DNA of 32,023 nucleotides from Planctomycetota bacterium (GTDB lineage Bacteria; Planctomycetota; Planctomycetia; Pirellulales; PLA5). The translations under genes and the position numbers were made by a program. Shown here in pieces: positions 14,019 to 18,881 of this stretch (its first letter is position 1; every line of letters starts with the position of its first letter). The DNA lies in contig JAJDEG010000005.1 of assembly GCA_029259895.1 (NCBI GenBank), positions 1 through 32,023 on the forward strand. Reading direction: 5' to 3'. Below the pieces are notes generated by a model. The model was not told the DNA's origin, searched no databases, and worked only from the letters and a program-made list of their open reading frames with translations.

Positions 14019-14096
14019 ATTGCCAGTGCGGTTGACGCCACGAAGCTCAGCGGCTCGGCGATTGCCTTTTGATTGCTGCCTGCGAGGGGTTTCGGT

Positions 14097-14396
14097 ATGC
14101 ACGACGTGATGCCGCTGGGATGTTTGGCCGCGGGGGCCCGTGGGGAAATCGCCGGAGTGATCGGCCGGCCCGAATACGTGCATCGGCTTCGCGAGATGGG
14201 CCTGCGCGACGGCGTTCGCATCGAGATCGTGCAAAGCGGGTCGCCCTGCATATTGCGCGTCGACGGACACCGGCTGTGCTTTCGCGATTGCGAAACGATG
14301 GGCGTGTTGGTGCGGACGACGGCCGCGGCATGCGTCGAAACCGTCGCGACAGTGGCATCCCGGTCAGCGGCGGCCCCGACCGCGGTCAACTATTGA
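14097..14396 (+). CDS. feoA: FeoA-family protein, first copy
   Basis: 99 residues. The SH3-like FeoA domain spans about residues 10-75, with the signature HRLREMGLRDGVRIEIVQSG (29-48) and a closing strand DGHRLCFRDCETMGVLV. FeoA is a small cytoplasmic partner of the ferrous-iron transporter FeoB. The copy is unusual for five cysteines (9, 51, 61, 65, 79), including a CxxxC pair, and an Ala/Thr/Val-rich tail after the domain. The start is set by GAGGGG at 14084-14089, seven bases before this ATG; an in-frame TTG 24 bp upstream is less likely. It is first in the operon, 105 bp before the second feoA. Confidence 0.85.
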   Translation: MHDVMPLGCLAAGARGEIAGVIGRPEYVHRLREMGLRDGVRIEIVQSGSPCILRVDGHRLCFRDCETMGVLVRTTAAACVETVATVASRSAAAPTAVNY

Positions 14397-14501
14397 GCGG
14401 CGTTCTTCGTTCGGAATTCTTGGAGGCCGAGGCAGGAGTTTGGACGCGACCCATCGCAACGTCGGGTTCGTCCTCGCGCCGTTTTTTTCCGCACCAATGC
14501 C

Positions 14502-14756
14502 ATGCCGCTGTTGTCTGAACTTCTGATCGGCCAACGTGCCCGCGTGGTGAACGTGGCAGGCGCGGATGGCGTGGGCGTCCGGCTGCTGGAGATGGGATTG
14601 ATCCCCGGCGTCGAGATACGTTTGCTGGGCGCCGCGCCGCTGGGCGATCCGCTGGAGTTCGAGTTGCGCGGCTATCGCTTGAGTCTGCGGCGATCCGAGG
14701 CCGCCCGCGTTGAGGTGCAAATGGATGCCGCGCAAGCCGAGGAGGCGACGGGCTGA
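14502..14756 (+). CDS. feoA: FeoA-family protein, second copy
   Basis: 84 residues, the standard FeoA length. Signature VRLLEMGLIPGVEIRLLGAA lies near residues 27-46, followed by GDPLEFELRGYRLSLRRSEA, the usual closing strands. It differs clearly from the first copy (no cysteines, acidic/Ala tail), so the two are not a recent duplication. The stop is 18 bp before feoB, which indicates co-transcription and a role as FeoB partner. Confidence 0.88.
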   Translation: MPLLSELLIGQRARVVNVAGADGVGVRLLEMGLIPGVEIRLLGAAPLGDPLEFELRGYRLSLRRSEAARVEVQMDAAQAEEATG

Positions 14757-14774
14757 CTCGTTGGCCGAACGCGC

Positions 14775-17066
14775 ATGGAAACCACTCGAAGCGAATCCGC
14801 CGGCAGCACCGCGAAGACGATCACGGTCGCGCTGGTTGGCAATCCCAACACGGGCAAATCGACGCTGTTCACCGCGCTGGCCGGAGTGCGGCAGCGGGTG
14901 GGGAATTATCCGGGCGTGACGGTCGAGAAAAAGATCGGCCGCACGAGCGTCTCCGGTCGGGCCGTCGATCTCGTCGATCTGCCGGGCACCTACAGCCTCG
15001 CGCCGCGATCGCCGGATGAGATGGTGACGGTCGACGTGCTGCTCGGTCGCCAAACCGGCACGCCGCGGCCCGACGCCGTGCTGTGCGTGGTCGATGCCAG
15101 CAACTTGGAACGAAATCTGTATTTGGTTAGCCAGGCGTTGGAACTCGGCCTGCCGACGGTGGTGGTGCTGACGATGGTCGATCTGGCCGAAGGACGCGGG
15201 TTGCGCGTCGATGTCGCGCGGCTGGAACGTCAGTTGGGCGTGCCGGTCGTGGCAGTGGCGGCCCATCGACGGATGGGACTCGATCCGCTTCGCCGAGCGC
15301 TCGTGAGCGCGATCGACGGCGGACGGAGCGCGGCCGTGACTCCGTTTTCGCCGGAGTTTCAGCGCGAAGTGAGTGAATTGCAATCGCGACTCTCGGCCAG
15401 CAACGGCGGCCAAACGCCGCGATTCTTGGCCGAACGGTTGCTGCTCGACACGAGCGGCTATATCGAAAGCGACTTGCTCGCGGCCGATGACCGCGCGACG
15501 CGCGAGGCGCTCGCCGCGGCGCGGCAGCGGCTCGCTGAGGCGGGACAACCGGTGCCGGCAGTCGAGGCGATCGCCCGCTATGGCTGGGCGGCGAAGGTGC
15601 TCGACGGCGTCGTCGAACGCAGCGCCAGCGAATCGGCATCGCTCAGCGATCGGCTGGATCGCGTGCTGTGCCACAAGGTGTACGGTGTGGCGATTTTCGT
15701 CGCGCTCATGTTTTTGATGTTCCAGTCGATCTTCACGTGGGCCGCGCCGGCGATGGAAGGCATCGACGGCATCAAGACGGCGCTCGTCGAGTGGATCGAG
15801 GGCGTCGGTGGCGAACCGCTGATGGCGGATGGCCCGCTGCGGTCGCTGATCACTAGCGGCGTTATCGAGGGCGTCGGCGGCGTGCTGATCTTTCTGCCGC
15901 AGATTTTGATTCTCTTCTTGTTTATCGCCTTGCTGGAAGACTGCGGCTATATGGCGCGGGCCGCGTATTTGATGGACAAGCTGATGGCTCCCATCGGGCT
16001 GAGCGGCAAGTCGTTCATTCCGCTGCTTTCGTCGTTCGCGTGCGCGATTCCCGGCGTGATGGCGGCCCGGGTTATCGAAAATCGCCGCGACAGGTTGCTG
16101 ACGATTCTCGTCGCGCCGCTGATGAGTTGTTCGGCCCGCCTACCGGTGTATACGTTGTTGATCGCCGCGTTCATACCGGAGCGGCTGCTGGCCGGATTTT
16201 CTGTAGGCGCGGTCGACGTTGGCTTTGGCCTGCAAGGGGCGACGATGTTCGCCATGTATCTGGTGGGGATTGTGGCAGCGGTGCTGGTGACGCTTGTGCT
16301 GCGCGGCACGATCCTCAAGGGCGAGACGCCGCCGTTCGTGATGGAGTTGCCGAGCTACAAGGTGCCGTCGCTCCGAGTTGTCGCTTCGCGCGTCGTCGAT
16401 CGTGGTTGGGCGTTCGTCCGCCGGGCAGGGACGATGATTTTTGCCGTGATGGTCCTCGTATGGGCGGCGGCGTATTATCCGCGGCTCGACGACGACGCCA
16501 GCCGGACGCTGGCCGCCGAGCAGGAAACGCTCGAGATCAAGATCGCCGCGATGGAGGAAGCGGAACAGGAAGAATCGCCCGAAATCGCCGCGCTGGGCGA
16601 GCGACGCGATGAGATCGCGAATCAATTGGCCGGCGAGCAGGTGCGGCAAAGCTATTTGGGCCGAGCGGGACAATGGATTGAGCCGGTGGTTGAGCCGCTG
16701 GGCTGGGATTGGCGAATCGGCTGCGCGGCGATCGCGTCGTTTCCGGCCCGCGAAGTGGTGGTCGGTACGATGGGCGTGCTGTACGACCTGGGATCGGAGG
16801 AAGACGAGGAGTCGCCGAGCCTGCGTGAGAAATTGCAGACCGCGACTTGGGACGGAACTAACCGAAAGGTGTTCGGTGTGCCCGTCGCCCTGTCGATCAT
16901 GGTGTTCTTCGCGCTGTGCTGCCAATGCGCGGCAACGCTGGCGGTAATCAAGCGCGAGACGAATTCCTGGCGGTGGCCGGCATTTACGTTCGCTTACATG
17001 ACGCTGCTGGCCTATGTGGCGGCGCTGGCGACCTATCAGATTGCCGTGCGAATCGTAGCGTCGTGA
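14775..17066 (+). CDS. feoB: Ferrous iron transporter FeoB
   Basis: 763 residues, full length for FeoB. An N-terminal G domain carries G1 GNPNTGKST (22-30), the G2 region YPGVTVEKKIG (45-55) and G3 DLPGT (68-72). The fourth GTPase motif, usually NxxD, reads TMVD (133-136), so the guanine-contacting Asn is a Thr. The membrane part has the two gate-like segments, with SFACAIPGVMAARVIENRRD and LMSCSARLPVYTLLIAAF, and ends with the Cys-containing CCQCAATLAVIKRETNSWRW helix. A charged, Glu-rich insert of about 55 residues (570-625) lies between membrane helices. It imports Fe2+ across the inner membrane, driven or gated by GTP hydrolysis. It is last in the feoA-feoA-feoB operon; no feoC is seen. 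Confidence 0.94.
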   Translation: METTRSESAGSTAKTITVALVGNPNTGKSTLFTALAGVRQRVGNYPGVTVEKKIGRTSVSGRAVDLVDLPGTYSLAPRSPDEMVTVDVLLGRQTGTPRPDAVLCVVDASNLERNLYLVSQALELGLPTVVVLTMVDLAEGRGLRVDVARLERQLGVPVVAVAAHRRMGLDPLRRALVSAIDGGRSAAVTPFSPEFQREVSELQSRLSASNGGQTPRFLAERLLLDTSGYIESDLLAADDRATREALAAARQRLAEAGQPVPAVEAIARYGWAAKVLDGVVERSASESASLSDRLDRVLCHKVYGVAIFVALMFLMFQSIFTWAAPAMEGIDGIKTALVEWIEGVGGEPLMADGPLRSLITSGVIEGVGGVLIFLPQILILFLFIALLEDCGYMARAAYLMDKLMAPIGLSGKSFIPLLSSFACAIPGVMAARVIENRRDRLLTILVAPLMSCSARLPVYTLLIAAFIPERLLAGFSVGAVDVGFGLQGATMFAMYLVGIVAAVLVTLVLRGTILKGETPPFVMELPSYKVPSLRVVASRVVDRGWAFVRRAGTMIFAVMVLVWAAAYYPRLDDDASRTLAAEQETLEIKIAAMEEAEQEESPEIAALGERRDEIANQLAGEQVRQSYLGRAGQWIEPVVEPLGWDWRIGCAAIASFPAREVVVGTMGVLYDLGSEEDEESPSLREKLQTATWDGTNRKVFGVPVALSIMVFFALCCQCAATLAVIKRETNSWRWPAFTFAYMTLLAYVAALATYQIAVRIVAS

Positions 17067-17168: not shown

Positions 17169-17197
17169 TTGATGGACTCCGCGGCGGGCGCTATACT
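17169..17197 (+). promoter_or_regulatory. Sigma-70-like promoter of the small basic protein gene
   Basis: -35 TTGATG (17169-17174), exactly 17 bp, -10 TATACT (17192-17197). Predicted start near 17204, about 47 nt before the ATG at 17251. It is one of the best promoter matches in the window, in keeping with an abundant small protein. Confidence 0.6.
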
Positions 17198-17250: not shown

Positions 17251-17520
17251 ATGACGATCGACAAAACACTCAAGGTTGCCCGCGGTCTGATTCGCAGCCG
17301 CAGCGTTCTTACCCGCGGCGAGCGTCTGGTGCGGCTCAAGGAAGCCGACCGTTGGCAGGAAGGGGACAGCCCCGTCGGCCTGCCAAAGGTGCGCGTCTAT
17401 AAGCTGGCGATGAAGAAGAAAAAGAAGAAGGCGGCCGAAGAGGGTGCCGAAGGGGCCGCGGCTCCGGCGGCTGCGCCGGCCAAGGGCGCGCCAGCCAAGG
17501 GTGGGGCGGGCAAGAAATAG
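17251..17520 (+). CDS. Small basic protein, TIGR04137 type, with Lys/Ala-rich tail
   Basis: 89 residues. The first ~50 (MTIDKTL...[18 protein letters not shown]...LPKVRV) match the pattern I know for TIGR04137, a small basic protein limited to Planctomycetes, Verrucomicrobia, Chlamydiae and relatives, of unknown function. Basic residues and the strict length suggest nucleic-acid or ribosome binding, but that is inference. After the core comes a run of six Lys (55-60), a short acidic patch and an Ala/Pro/Gly/Lys tail (66-89) like those of histone H1 or some planctomycete HU proteins. It has its own promoter candidate at 17169-17197. larA follows 89 bp downstream on the same strand and could be read through. 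Confidence 0.8.
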
Positions 17521-17609
17521 CTGCTGGCGGCGCTCGTTGCTCGCCGCGTGGTGCTGGCGGTTATGGCCACTGGCATCAGCCGACGTTCGATCTTCGACGG
17601 GTGCTTCCG

Positions 17610-18881
17610 ATGCGCGTTCGCCTGGAATATGGTCGGCAGGGTTTGGAGGTCGACTTGCCGGCCGATCGGGTCGTGCGGACGCTTAAGTACAAAGACGCGC
17701 CGCCGCTGGCCGAGCCGCTGGCCGAACTGGAGAAACTCCTCGACGCGCCGATCGGCACGCCGCCGCTGGTCGAGCTTGCCCGCGTGAAGCGGAGTGCGTG
17801 CATCGCCATCTGCGACATTACGCGGCCCGTGCCCAACGCCTTGATGCTGCCCCCGATCCTCCAACGGCTCGAAGCGGCTGGCATTGCTCGCGAGGCGATC
17901 ACAATTCTGATCGCCACGGGTCTGCATCGGCCGAACGAAGGTGACGAACTGGTCGAGTTGGTTGGGGCGGAGATCGCGGCCAACTATCGGATCGAGAATC
18001 ACCACGGCAAAGTACTCGGCGAGCATACGTATTGCGGCGAGAGCCCGCGGGGCGTGCCGATTTGGATCGACTCGCGGTACGTCGAAGCGGAACTCAAGAT
18101 CACGACCGGTTTGATCGAGCCGCATTTGATGGCCGGTTTTTCCGGCGGCCGGAAGTTGATCTGTCCGGGCATCGCGGCGCTGGAAACGGTGAAGATCTGG
18201 CACGGGCCGGACTTCTTGGAAAGCCCGCTGGCCGACTGCGGCATTCTCGACGGTAATCCGGTGCACGAGGAAAACACGTGGATCGGTCGGCACGTGGGCT
18301 GCGACTTCATCGCCAACGTGGTGATCGACTCGCAGCGGCGGCCGCTGAAGTTTGTGGCCGGCGACATGGAGGCCGCGTTTCTCGACGGCGTGGCGTTCTG
18401 CCGGGCGGTGGTCCGCGACACGGTCGACGAGCCGGTCGATATCGTCGTGACCAGTTGCGCCGGCTATCCGCTCGACACGACGTTTTATCAAGCGGTGAAG
18501 GGACTGACCGGGGCGTTGCCGATCGTCAAGCAAGGCGGCACGATCATCATGGCGGCCAGCCTGACCGAGGGCATCGGCAGTCCGGAGTTCGAGAGCCTGT
18601 TTCGCGACAATGCGAGCCTCGACGTGTTCATCGAGCGGATTCTGGGCAAGGACTATTTCGTGATGGACCAGTGGCAACTCGAAGAGCTGGCCAAGGTCTG
18701 TCGCAAGGCGAAGGTGAAGATCGTCAGCGACGGGTTGCCGGCCGAGACGCTCAACAAGTTGTTCGTTGAGGCTGCGCCGTCGGTCGAACGGGCGCTGGCG
18801 GAGTCGCTCGACGAATACGGCCCGACGGCGACGGTGGCGGTGATTCCGAAGGGGCCCTATGTGCTGGCGCAGGTGGTTTAG
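17610..18881 (+). CDS. larA: LarA-family (nickel-pincer) racemase/epimerase
   Basis: 423 residues. LarA enzymes interconvert stereoisomers of 2-hydroxy acids (lactate in the type case) using a nickel-pincer nucleotide bound to Lys. The known L. plantarum active-site residues all have counterparts at nearly the same numbers: CDITRPVPN (68-76, Arg72), His106 in ATGLHRPN, His172 in EPH, the cofactor Lys182 in FSGGRK and the nickel ligand His198 in KIWHG. The cofactor-making genes larB, larC and larE are not in the window. The substrate may be a hydroxy acid other than lactate, since the family is broad. ATG at 17610 is chosen; GTG at 17601 is an equal-frame alternative adding three residues. Confidence 0.85.

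Follow-up and report, generated by a model that had tools for sequence, protein, structure and literature searches.

A small basic protein of the PVC signature family TIGR04137 in a planctomycete, and its possible place on the ribosome

The window, by which we mean the whole stretch of 32,023 nucleotides of planctomycete DNA analyzed here, contains a short gene for a small basic protein, and the question that it raises is what a protein of this kind does in the cell. The initial annotation placed the product in the TIGR04137 family, described a conserved-looking core of 50 residues followed by an H1-like Lys/Ala tail, and proposed a nucleoid or ribosome factor special to the PVC superphylum. 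The gene and its parts are as follows.

17251..17520, + strand: TIGR04137 small basic protein gene, ATG start, 89 amino acids plus stop
17251..17394, + strand: conserved core, residues 1-48 (83 aligned sequences)
17401..17430, + strand: basic block, residues 51-60, with four or more Lys after a hydrophobic residue (31 of 31 members of the order)
17431..17517, + strand: variable end rich in Ala, Pro, Lys and Gly, without conservation; residues 61-89, net charge +1

An open reading frame was found at the annotated position, and it is confirmed as an ordinary member of the known TIGR04137 family. Residues 1-49 match the NCBIfam model TIGR04137.1 ('Chlam_Ver_rRNA') with an E-value of 5.7e-19 and a score of 67.7 bits, above the curated cut-off of 50 bits, and the core runs from the initiator methionine with the conserved residues R17, E24, G43 and K46 in place. 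The window's own genome holds one match above that cut-off, namely the window gene itself. A Pfam search with the window protein returned no match, and 83 family members gave scattered weak matches only, with PF00327 (uL30) absent, as it was for the window protein. A sequence search of the PDB found no chain that matches the family; the matches that it did return (a designed repeat protein, a kinesin, SNAP-29 and a PH-like protein) were rejected as compositional or short chance similarities.

In the portions of the literature available to us, the family appears as CT421.2, which Gupta and colleagues described as unique to PVC bacteria (PMC3444138, Gupta 2012; PMC2474590), with lengths from about 53 amino acids in the Chlamydiaceae to more than 80 in the Planctomycetes and a function given there as not known (PMC3444138; PMC2474590). 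It had been pointed out by 2008 as a protein shared by the PVC group and not seen elsewhere (PMC2474590), and was found in all Chlamydiae sequenced by the time of the later paper (PMC3444138). Poribacteria are described as being without the marker protein (PMC3909097), and two homologues are reported in Aerophobetes (PMC7203096). This last source suggests that the family may stand in for ribosomal protein L30 in a group-specific manner, and it credits an L30-like folding pattern to Lagkouvardos et al. 2014, cited here at second hand (PMC7203096). These extracts thus already contain the restriction to PVC bacteria as well as the proposed link to the ribosome. The window protein resembles CT421.2 of Chlamydia trachomatis in its core (residues 1-49), start, size, basic charge and PVC-type distribution; the Chlamydiaceae form is about 53 amino acids long, to which the window member adds a run of six lysines (K6, residues 55-60) and a 29-residue Ala/Pro/Lys end (extracts of PMC3444138). 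Our literature search met no paper that names TIGR04137 and none that settles the function of the family, and in this respect the initial annotation, which had listed no assigned function, holds. Extracts of an essential-gene study of Planctopirus limnophila do not name the family (PMC10632474), the accessible parts of PMC9816063 and PMC5945725 give no function for it, and the titles and opening lines of abstracts that we searched yielded no PVC ribosome structure.

The claimed restriction to the PVC group agrees both with print and with our own searches, in which two PVC phyla were positive and 14 controls, a small sample of non-PVC genomes, were negative. Our counts cover Planctomycetota, Omnitrophota and these controls; statements about Verrucomicrobiota and Chlamydiota are taken from the published extract (PMC3444138). 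Of 294 Planctomycetota genomes, 275 have TIGR04137, 273 of them over the cut-off, and among the 177 high-quality genomes the count is 173. In the window's order, 72 of 77 genomes have it, as do 113 of 117 Omnitrophota genomes (109 over the cut-off). A second match occurred in only 5 of the 275 Planctomycetota and 2 of the 113 Omnitrophota, and in both of the latter it fell short of the cut-off; every other genome with the family has one copy. The 14 controls gave no match at an E-value of 0.01; at a limit of 10, eight of them gave matches, none over the cut-off. Plasmid and phage records searched with the window protein gave no match, and neither did viral contigs searched with a four-member core alignment. 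When nine matchless genomes were re-searched with the family alignment, seven gave nothing, G433 gave a weak and partial match that reaches the end of a contig, and G486 gave a match at chance level; this re-search did not establish true gene loss in matchless genomes. G434, which belongs to the same genus as the window and is 99% complete, gave no match by either search, a result for which loss and a gap in the assembly are both possible explanations.

The conservation attributed to the core was borne out. Across the 83 aligned sequences, M1, L7, R17, E24 and K46 are invariant and S6, V19, R22, R25, L29, G43, L44 and P45 nearly so. Pairwise comparisons of the core among 31 order members (the window plus 30 others) show differences of 0.29 at the first codon position, 0.22 at the second and 0.59 at the third, indicating that this reading frame is selected for its protein. 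Just past the core, 30 of these 31 members have five or more lysines in a row. Outside the order this block is looser: a run of four occurs in 0 of 22 Omnitrophota rows versus 54 of 100 other rows (122 rows from both phyla, in which some genes were fetched twice and from which one further row with unknown residues was dropped). The remainder of the window protein, residues 61-89, is an AAPAK-type end of 29 residues with a net charge of +1. Within the order, what follows residue 60 ranges from 6 to 47 residues in length and from -9 to +4 in charge. The core is thus the conserved part of the protein, the end is an ornament, and the Lys block is an addition made in the order.

Eukaryotic histone H1 tails and bacterial H1-like proteins carry a Lys/Ala/Pro-rich end, and the initial annotation drew on this likeness. 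A nucleoid protein that compacts DNA with an H1-like Lys/Ala tail would be consistent with the basic core of the family (median charge +6) and with the AAK/PAK-like motifs that 42 of the 122 rows carry in their ends. The tail description fits the composition of the window protein, but it does not extend to the family, since the end varies so widely in length and charge within the order and since in 5 of the 122 rows from both phyla the protein stops no more than 10 residues past the core. The comparison with H1 is therefore weak: the likeness is compositional, the end is not conserved, no Pfam domain was found, and neither the order set nor the 122 rows have a conserved basic Lys/Ala-rich tail. 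The nucleoid protein HU, which was found in 30 of 30 genomes tested, also behaves differently, with 1 to 12 matches per genome and less conservation than TIGR04137. Taken together, we regard a nucleoid role as improbable.

We compared TIGR04137 with proteins whose roles are established. Compared pairwise across 29 genomes, the first 50 residues of TIGR04137 have a mean identity of 0.52, bS21 of 0.46, uL14 of 0.66 and the best HU match of 0.40, and single copies of bS21 and uL14 were found in 29 and 30 of 30 genomes, respectively. In copy number and conservation, TIGR04137 resembles a ribosomal protein more than a nucleoid protein. One counterpart in these respects is bS21 (PF01165), which is likewise small, single-copy and conserved to a similar level in the compared genomes. 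Unlike a protein replaced by TIGR04137, however, bS21 is encoded by a separate gene alongside it in 30 of 30 genomes tested, so bS21 is not what the TIGR04137 protein replaces.

The ribosomal protein named in print is L30 (uL30, rpmD, PF00327), which is similar in size to the window protein and missing from both phyla in which TIGR04137 is nearly universal. No L30 match over the cut-off was found in 195 Planctomycetota genomes (a draw that overlaps the 294 without being identical to it) or in 117 Omnitrophota genomes, versus 13 of 14 controls; one genome in each of the two sets gave a match below the cut-off, and a smaller check of nine Omnitrophota found no uL30. In all 12 spc operons in which uS5 and uL15 could be located by motif search (20 regions were fetched and the remaining 8 stayed unresolved), no open reading frame of at least 40 amino acids lies between these two genes. 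The one control without uL30 is Synechococcus elongatus, in which uL14 was detected and TIGR04137 is also missing; because it lacks both, loss of uL30 need not be made good by TIGR04137.

The published idea that the TIGR04137 protein is a structural homologue or fold mimic occupying the uL30 site draws on this complementary distribution and on the reported similarity of folding pattern (as relayed in PMC7203096). Our comparisons argue in the other direction. An hhalign comparison with a three-sequence uL30 alignment gave a probability of 0.3% over 8 columns, and by this profile comparison the TIGR04137 protein is not a sequence homologue of uL30. The TIGR04137 gene also lies outside the spc position between uS5 and uL15. 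AlphaFold modeling of the full window protein with 83 sequences gave a mean pLDDT of 66 and a pTM of 0.31, with helices at residues 22-31 and, at lower confidence, 50-64, and modeling of a natural, nearly tail-less homologue with 73 sequences gave a pLDDT of 72, a pTM of 0.41 and one helix at residues 22-32. These low-confidence models are mostly unstructured with one helix in the core, and they lack the beta-alpha-beta fold of uL30. Foldseek found no uL30 with either model, its best PDB match having an E-value of 8.7 for the full protein and there being none for the tail-less form. The alignment is shallow (Neff about 2.4), such that the low confidence of the models may hide a real fold. Many small ribosomal proteins, when modeled alone, are likewise predicted with low confidence and as mostly unstructured. 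The hhalign, AlphaFold and Foldseek results disagree with the L30 fold similarity credited to Lagkouvardos et al. 2014 (as cited in PMC7203096). The TIGR04137 protein is probably no fold mimic of uL30, and its occupying the uL30 site as a structural homologue is very unlikely.

The genomic context of the gene was compared across 188 unique loci, many of them with short flanks (15 further fetched loci, in which the script's pattern missed the open reading frame, were left out). The neighbors in the window are the following.

14073-14396: FeoA-domain gene
14502-14756: FeoA-domain gene
14775-17066: FeoB gene, upstream of the TIGR04137 gene
17601..18881, + strand: relative of LarA-family racemases (Lar_N and LarA_C domains), starting 80 nt beyond the TIGR04137 gene

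The two FeoA-domain genes and FeoB, spanning 14073-17066, constitute a ferrous iron uptake cluster. An operon link between FeoB and TIGR04137 was rejected, as FeoB in G434 is followed by an unrelated open reading frame, which by eye looks PEP-CTERM-like (locus L159), and none of the other 187 loci, their flanks often short, has FeoB. The LarA relative scores below the cut-offs of all five LarA-type models that it matches (405.6 bits versus 460 for NF033504). Such a gene lies downstream of TIGR04137 in 11 of the 188 loci, counting the window, and the 31-member order set supplies 7 of the 11. No single neighbor is common to all 188 loci. An association with rRNA genes, suggested by the model name Chlam_Ver_rRNA, was also rejected: a scan of 163 sequences with four short motifs, allowing two mismatches, found no rRNA operon by the gene and only two isolated matches to one 16S motif. 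In one genome (G149:C247, locus L314), we noted by eye a bS21 gene that is oriented opposite to the TIGR04137 gene and lies about 1.1 kb away from it.

Sixteen of the 188 loci hold 21 tRNA genes, and five of these adjoin the TIGR04137 gene. All five are tRNA-Asn(GTT) genes located on the same strand, 25-159 nt downstream (loci L013, L044, L046, L107 and L200, of which L013 and L200 come from one family). No other tRNA gene lies within 400 nt downstream or 500 nt upstream of TIGR04137 in the 188 loci. Given the copy number and conservation of TIGR04137 and the tRNA-Asn gene downstream of it in 5 of 188 loci, we favor a role in the ribosome or translation over one in the nucleoid. The proposal of a nucleoid or ribosome factor thus fared differently in its two halves: the ribosome half is backed by the L30 proposal in the published extracts, the absence of L30, single copy, core conservation and some tRNA-Asn adjacency, whereas the nucleoid half is at odds with a copy number unlike that of HU and an H1-like end that is variable or nearly missing.

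A different neighbor recurs in Omnitrophota: 31 of 34 loci (for example, L221 and L205) have a gene belonging to one cluster upstream of TIGR04137 and on its strand, in 30 of them adjacent, and the one cluster member tested has a SPOR domain (PF05036, E-value 6.5e-10). This, and a similar-looking upstream gene in 14 loci outside Omnitrophota (one of which was tested and gave no Pfam match), would be expected if the TIGR04137 protein were linked to the envelope or to cell division and acted with an upstream membrane-protein neighbor. However, that neighbor is not kept elsewhere, the window itself having FeoB upstream; the core sequence, judged by eye, looks hydrophilic and shows no evident membrane segment; and the downstream genes tested are metabolic. 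Among these is a member of another cluster, present in 42 loci, none of them in Omnitrophota, and mostly just downstream of TIGR04137; the tested member, which itself lies 3.1 kb downstream, is an aminotransferase. We consider an envelope or division role barely credible.

The initial annotation also described a near-consensus promoter, and a site is present upstream of the gene:

17169..17197, + strand: sigma70-type promoter-like site, TTGATG-N17-TATACT, 9 of 12 matches

Two such sites occur on both strands of 3.5 kb, compared to a mean of 0.5 after shuffling. Sites with at least 9 of 12 matches were found in 18 of the 31 upstream 200-bp windows of the order, and in 3.3% of 789 control windows taken from these loci. 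The excess recurs in two further sets that partly overlap each other, at 9 of 30 versus 5.3% and at 34 of 78 versus 8.0% (the 78-locus set takes in some Omnitrophota), and is not seen in 12 Omnitrophota loci (3 of 12 versus 19.1% of controls). Although "near-consensus" is generous for 9 of 12 matches, the site stands and is enriched across the order, and the TIGR04137 gene likely has a promoter of its own; its strength is a separate matter. Codon usage, considered as a proxy for expression, gave a negative result and did not support the abundance suggested in the initial annotation. Among 28 genomes (two of the 30 were dropped for having too few open reading frames), TIGR04137 is nearer to ribosomal proteins than is the local background in only 13, compared to 22 of 28 for the ribosomal proteins themselves.

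Codon usage unlike that of ribosomal proteins counts against a ribosomal protein, and it fits equally well a ribosome assembly, hibernation or RNA-chaperone factor that binds rRNA or pre-ribosomes transiently and is not a stoichiometric component. Most of the evidence for a ribosomal protein is shared by such a factor, and promoter-like sites upstream of a gene outside ribosomal protein operons fit both equally. Near-universal single copy and strong core conservation suggest a structural part instead, as does the printed presence of the family in all Chlamydiae then sequenced (extract of PMC3444138), but neither point is decisive. We judge a transient factor to be rather unlikely.

The reading that we prefer is that the TIGR04137 product is a PVC-specific small ribosomal protein or a constitutive ribosome-bound factor, for which we infer, from distribution, conservation and context, about an even chance. 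According to this reading, the 48-residue core would be largely unfolded when free and would take shape on the ribosome, its conserved arginines and lysines and one short helix (about residues 22-32) contacting rRNA; the Lys block and the variable end would form an added basic extension; and the protein may compensate for the loss of uL30 in its lineage. Beyond the codon usage, several observations weigh against a ribosomal protein: the gene did not appear within any ribosomal operon and has no universal neighbor, the tRNA-Asn link is limited to the five loci, S. elongatus does without both proteins, no PDB chain was matched by sequence, the nearly complete G434 gave no match, and the AlphaFold models are of low confidence from a shallow alignment. 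A more specific version, in which this is a superphylum-wide ribosomal protein that matches no solved structure by sequence, is present on PVC ribosomes, those of Chlamydia included, and replaces the role of the lost uL30 by means of a different fold, is possible but rather doubtful. We claim no novelty for the order-wide Lys block, the tRNA-Asn adjacency or the failed L30-fold test, which are absent from the portions of the literature that we consulted without a search dedicated to them.

By itself, the window adds an ordinary member to the TIGR04137 family. If the family does prove to be a true ribosomal protein, it would represent a lineage-specific part of the ribosome for a superphylum to which both Chlamydia and the anammox bacteria belong.
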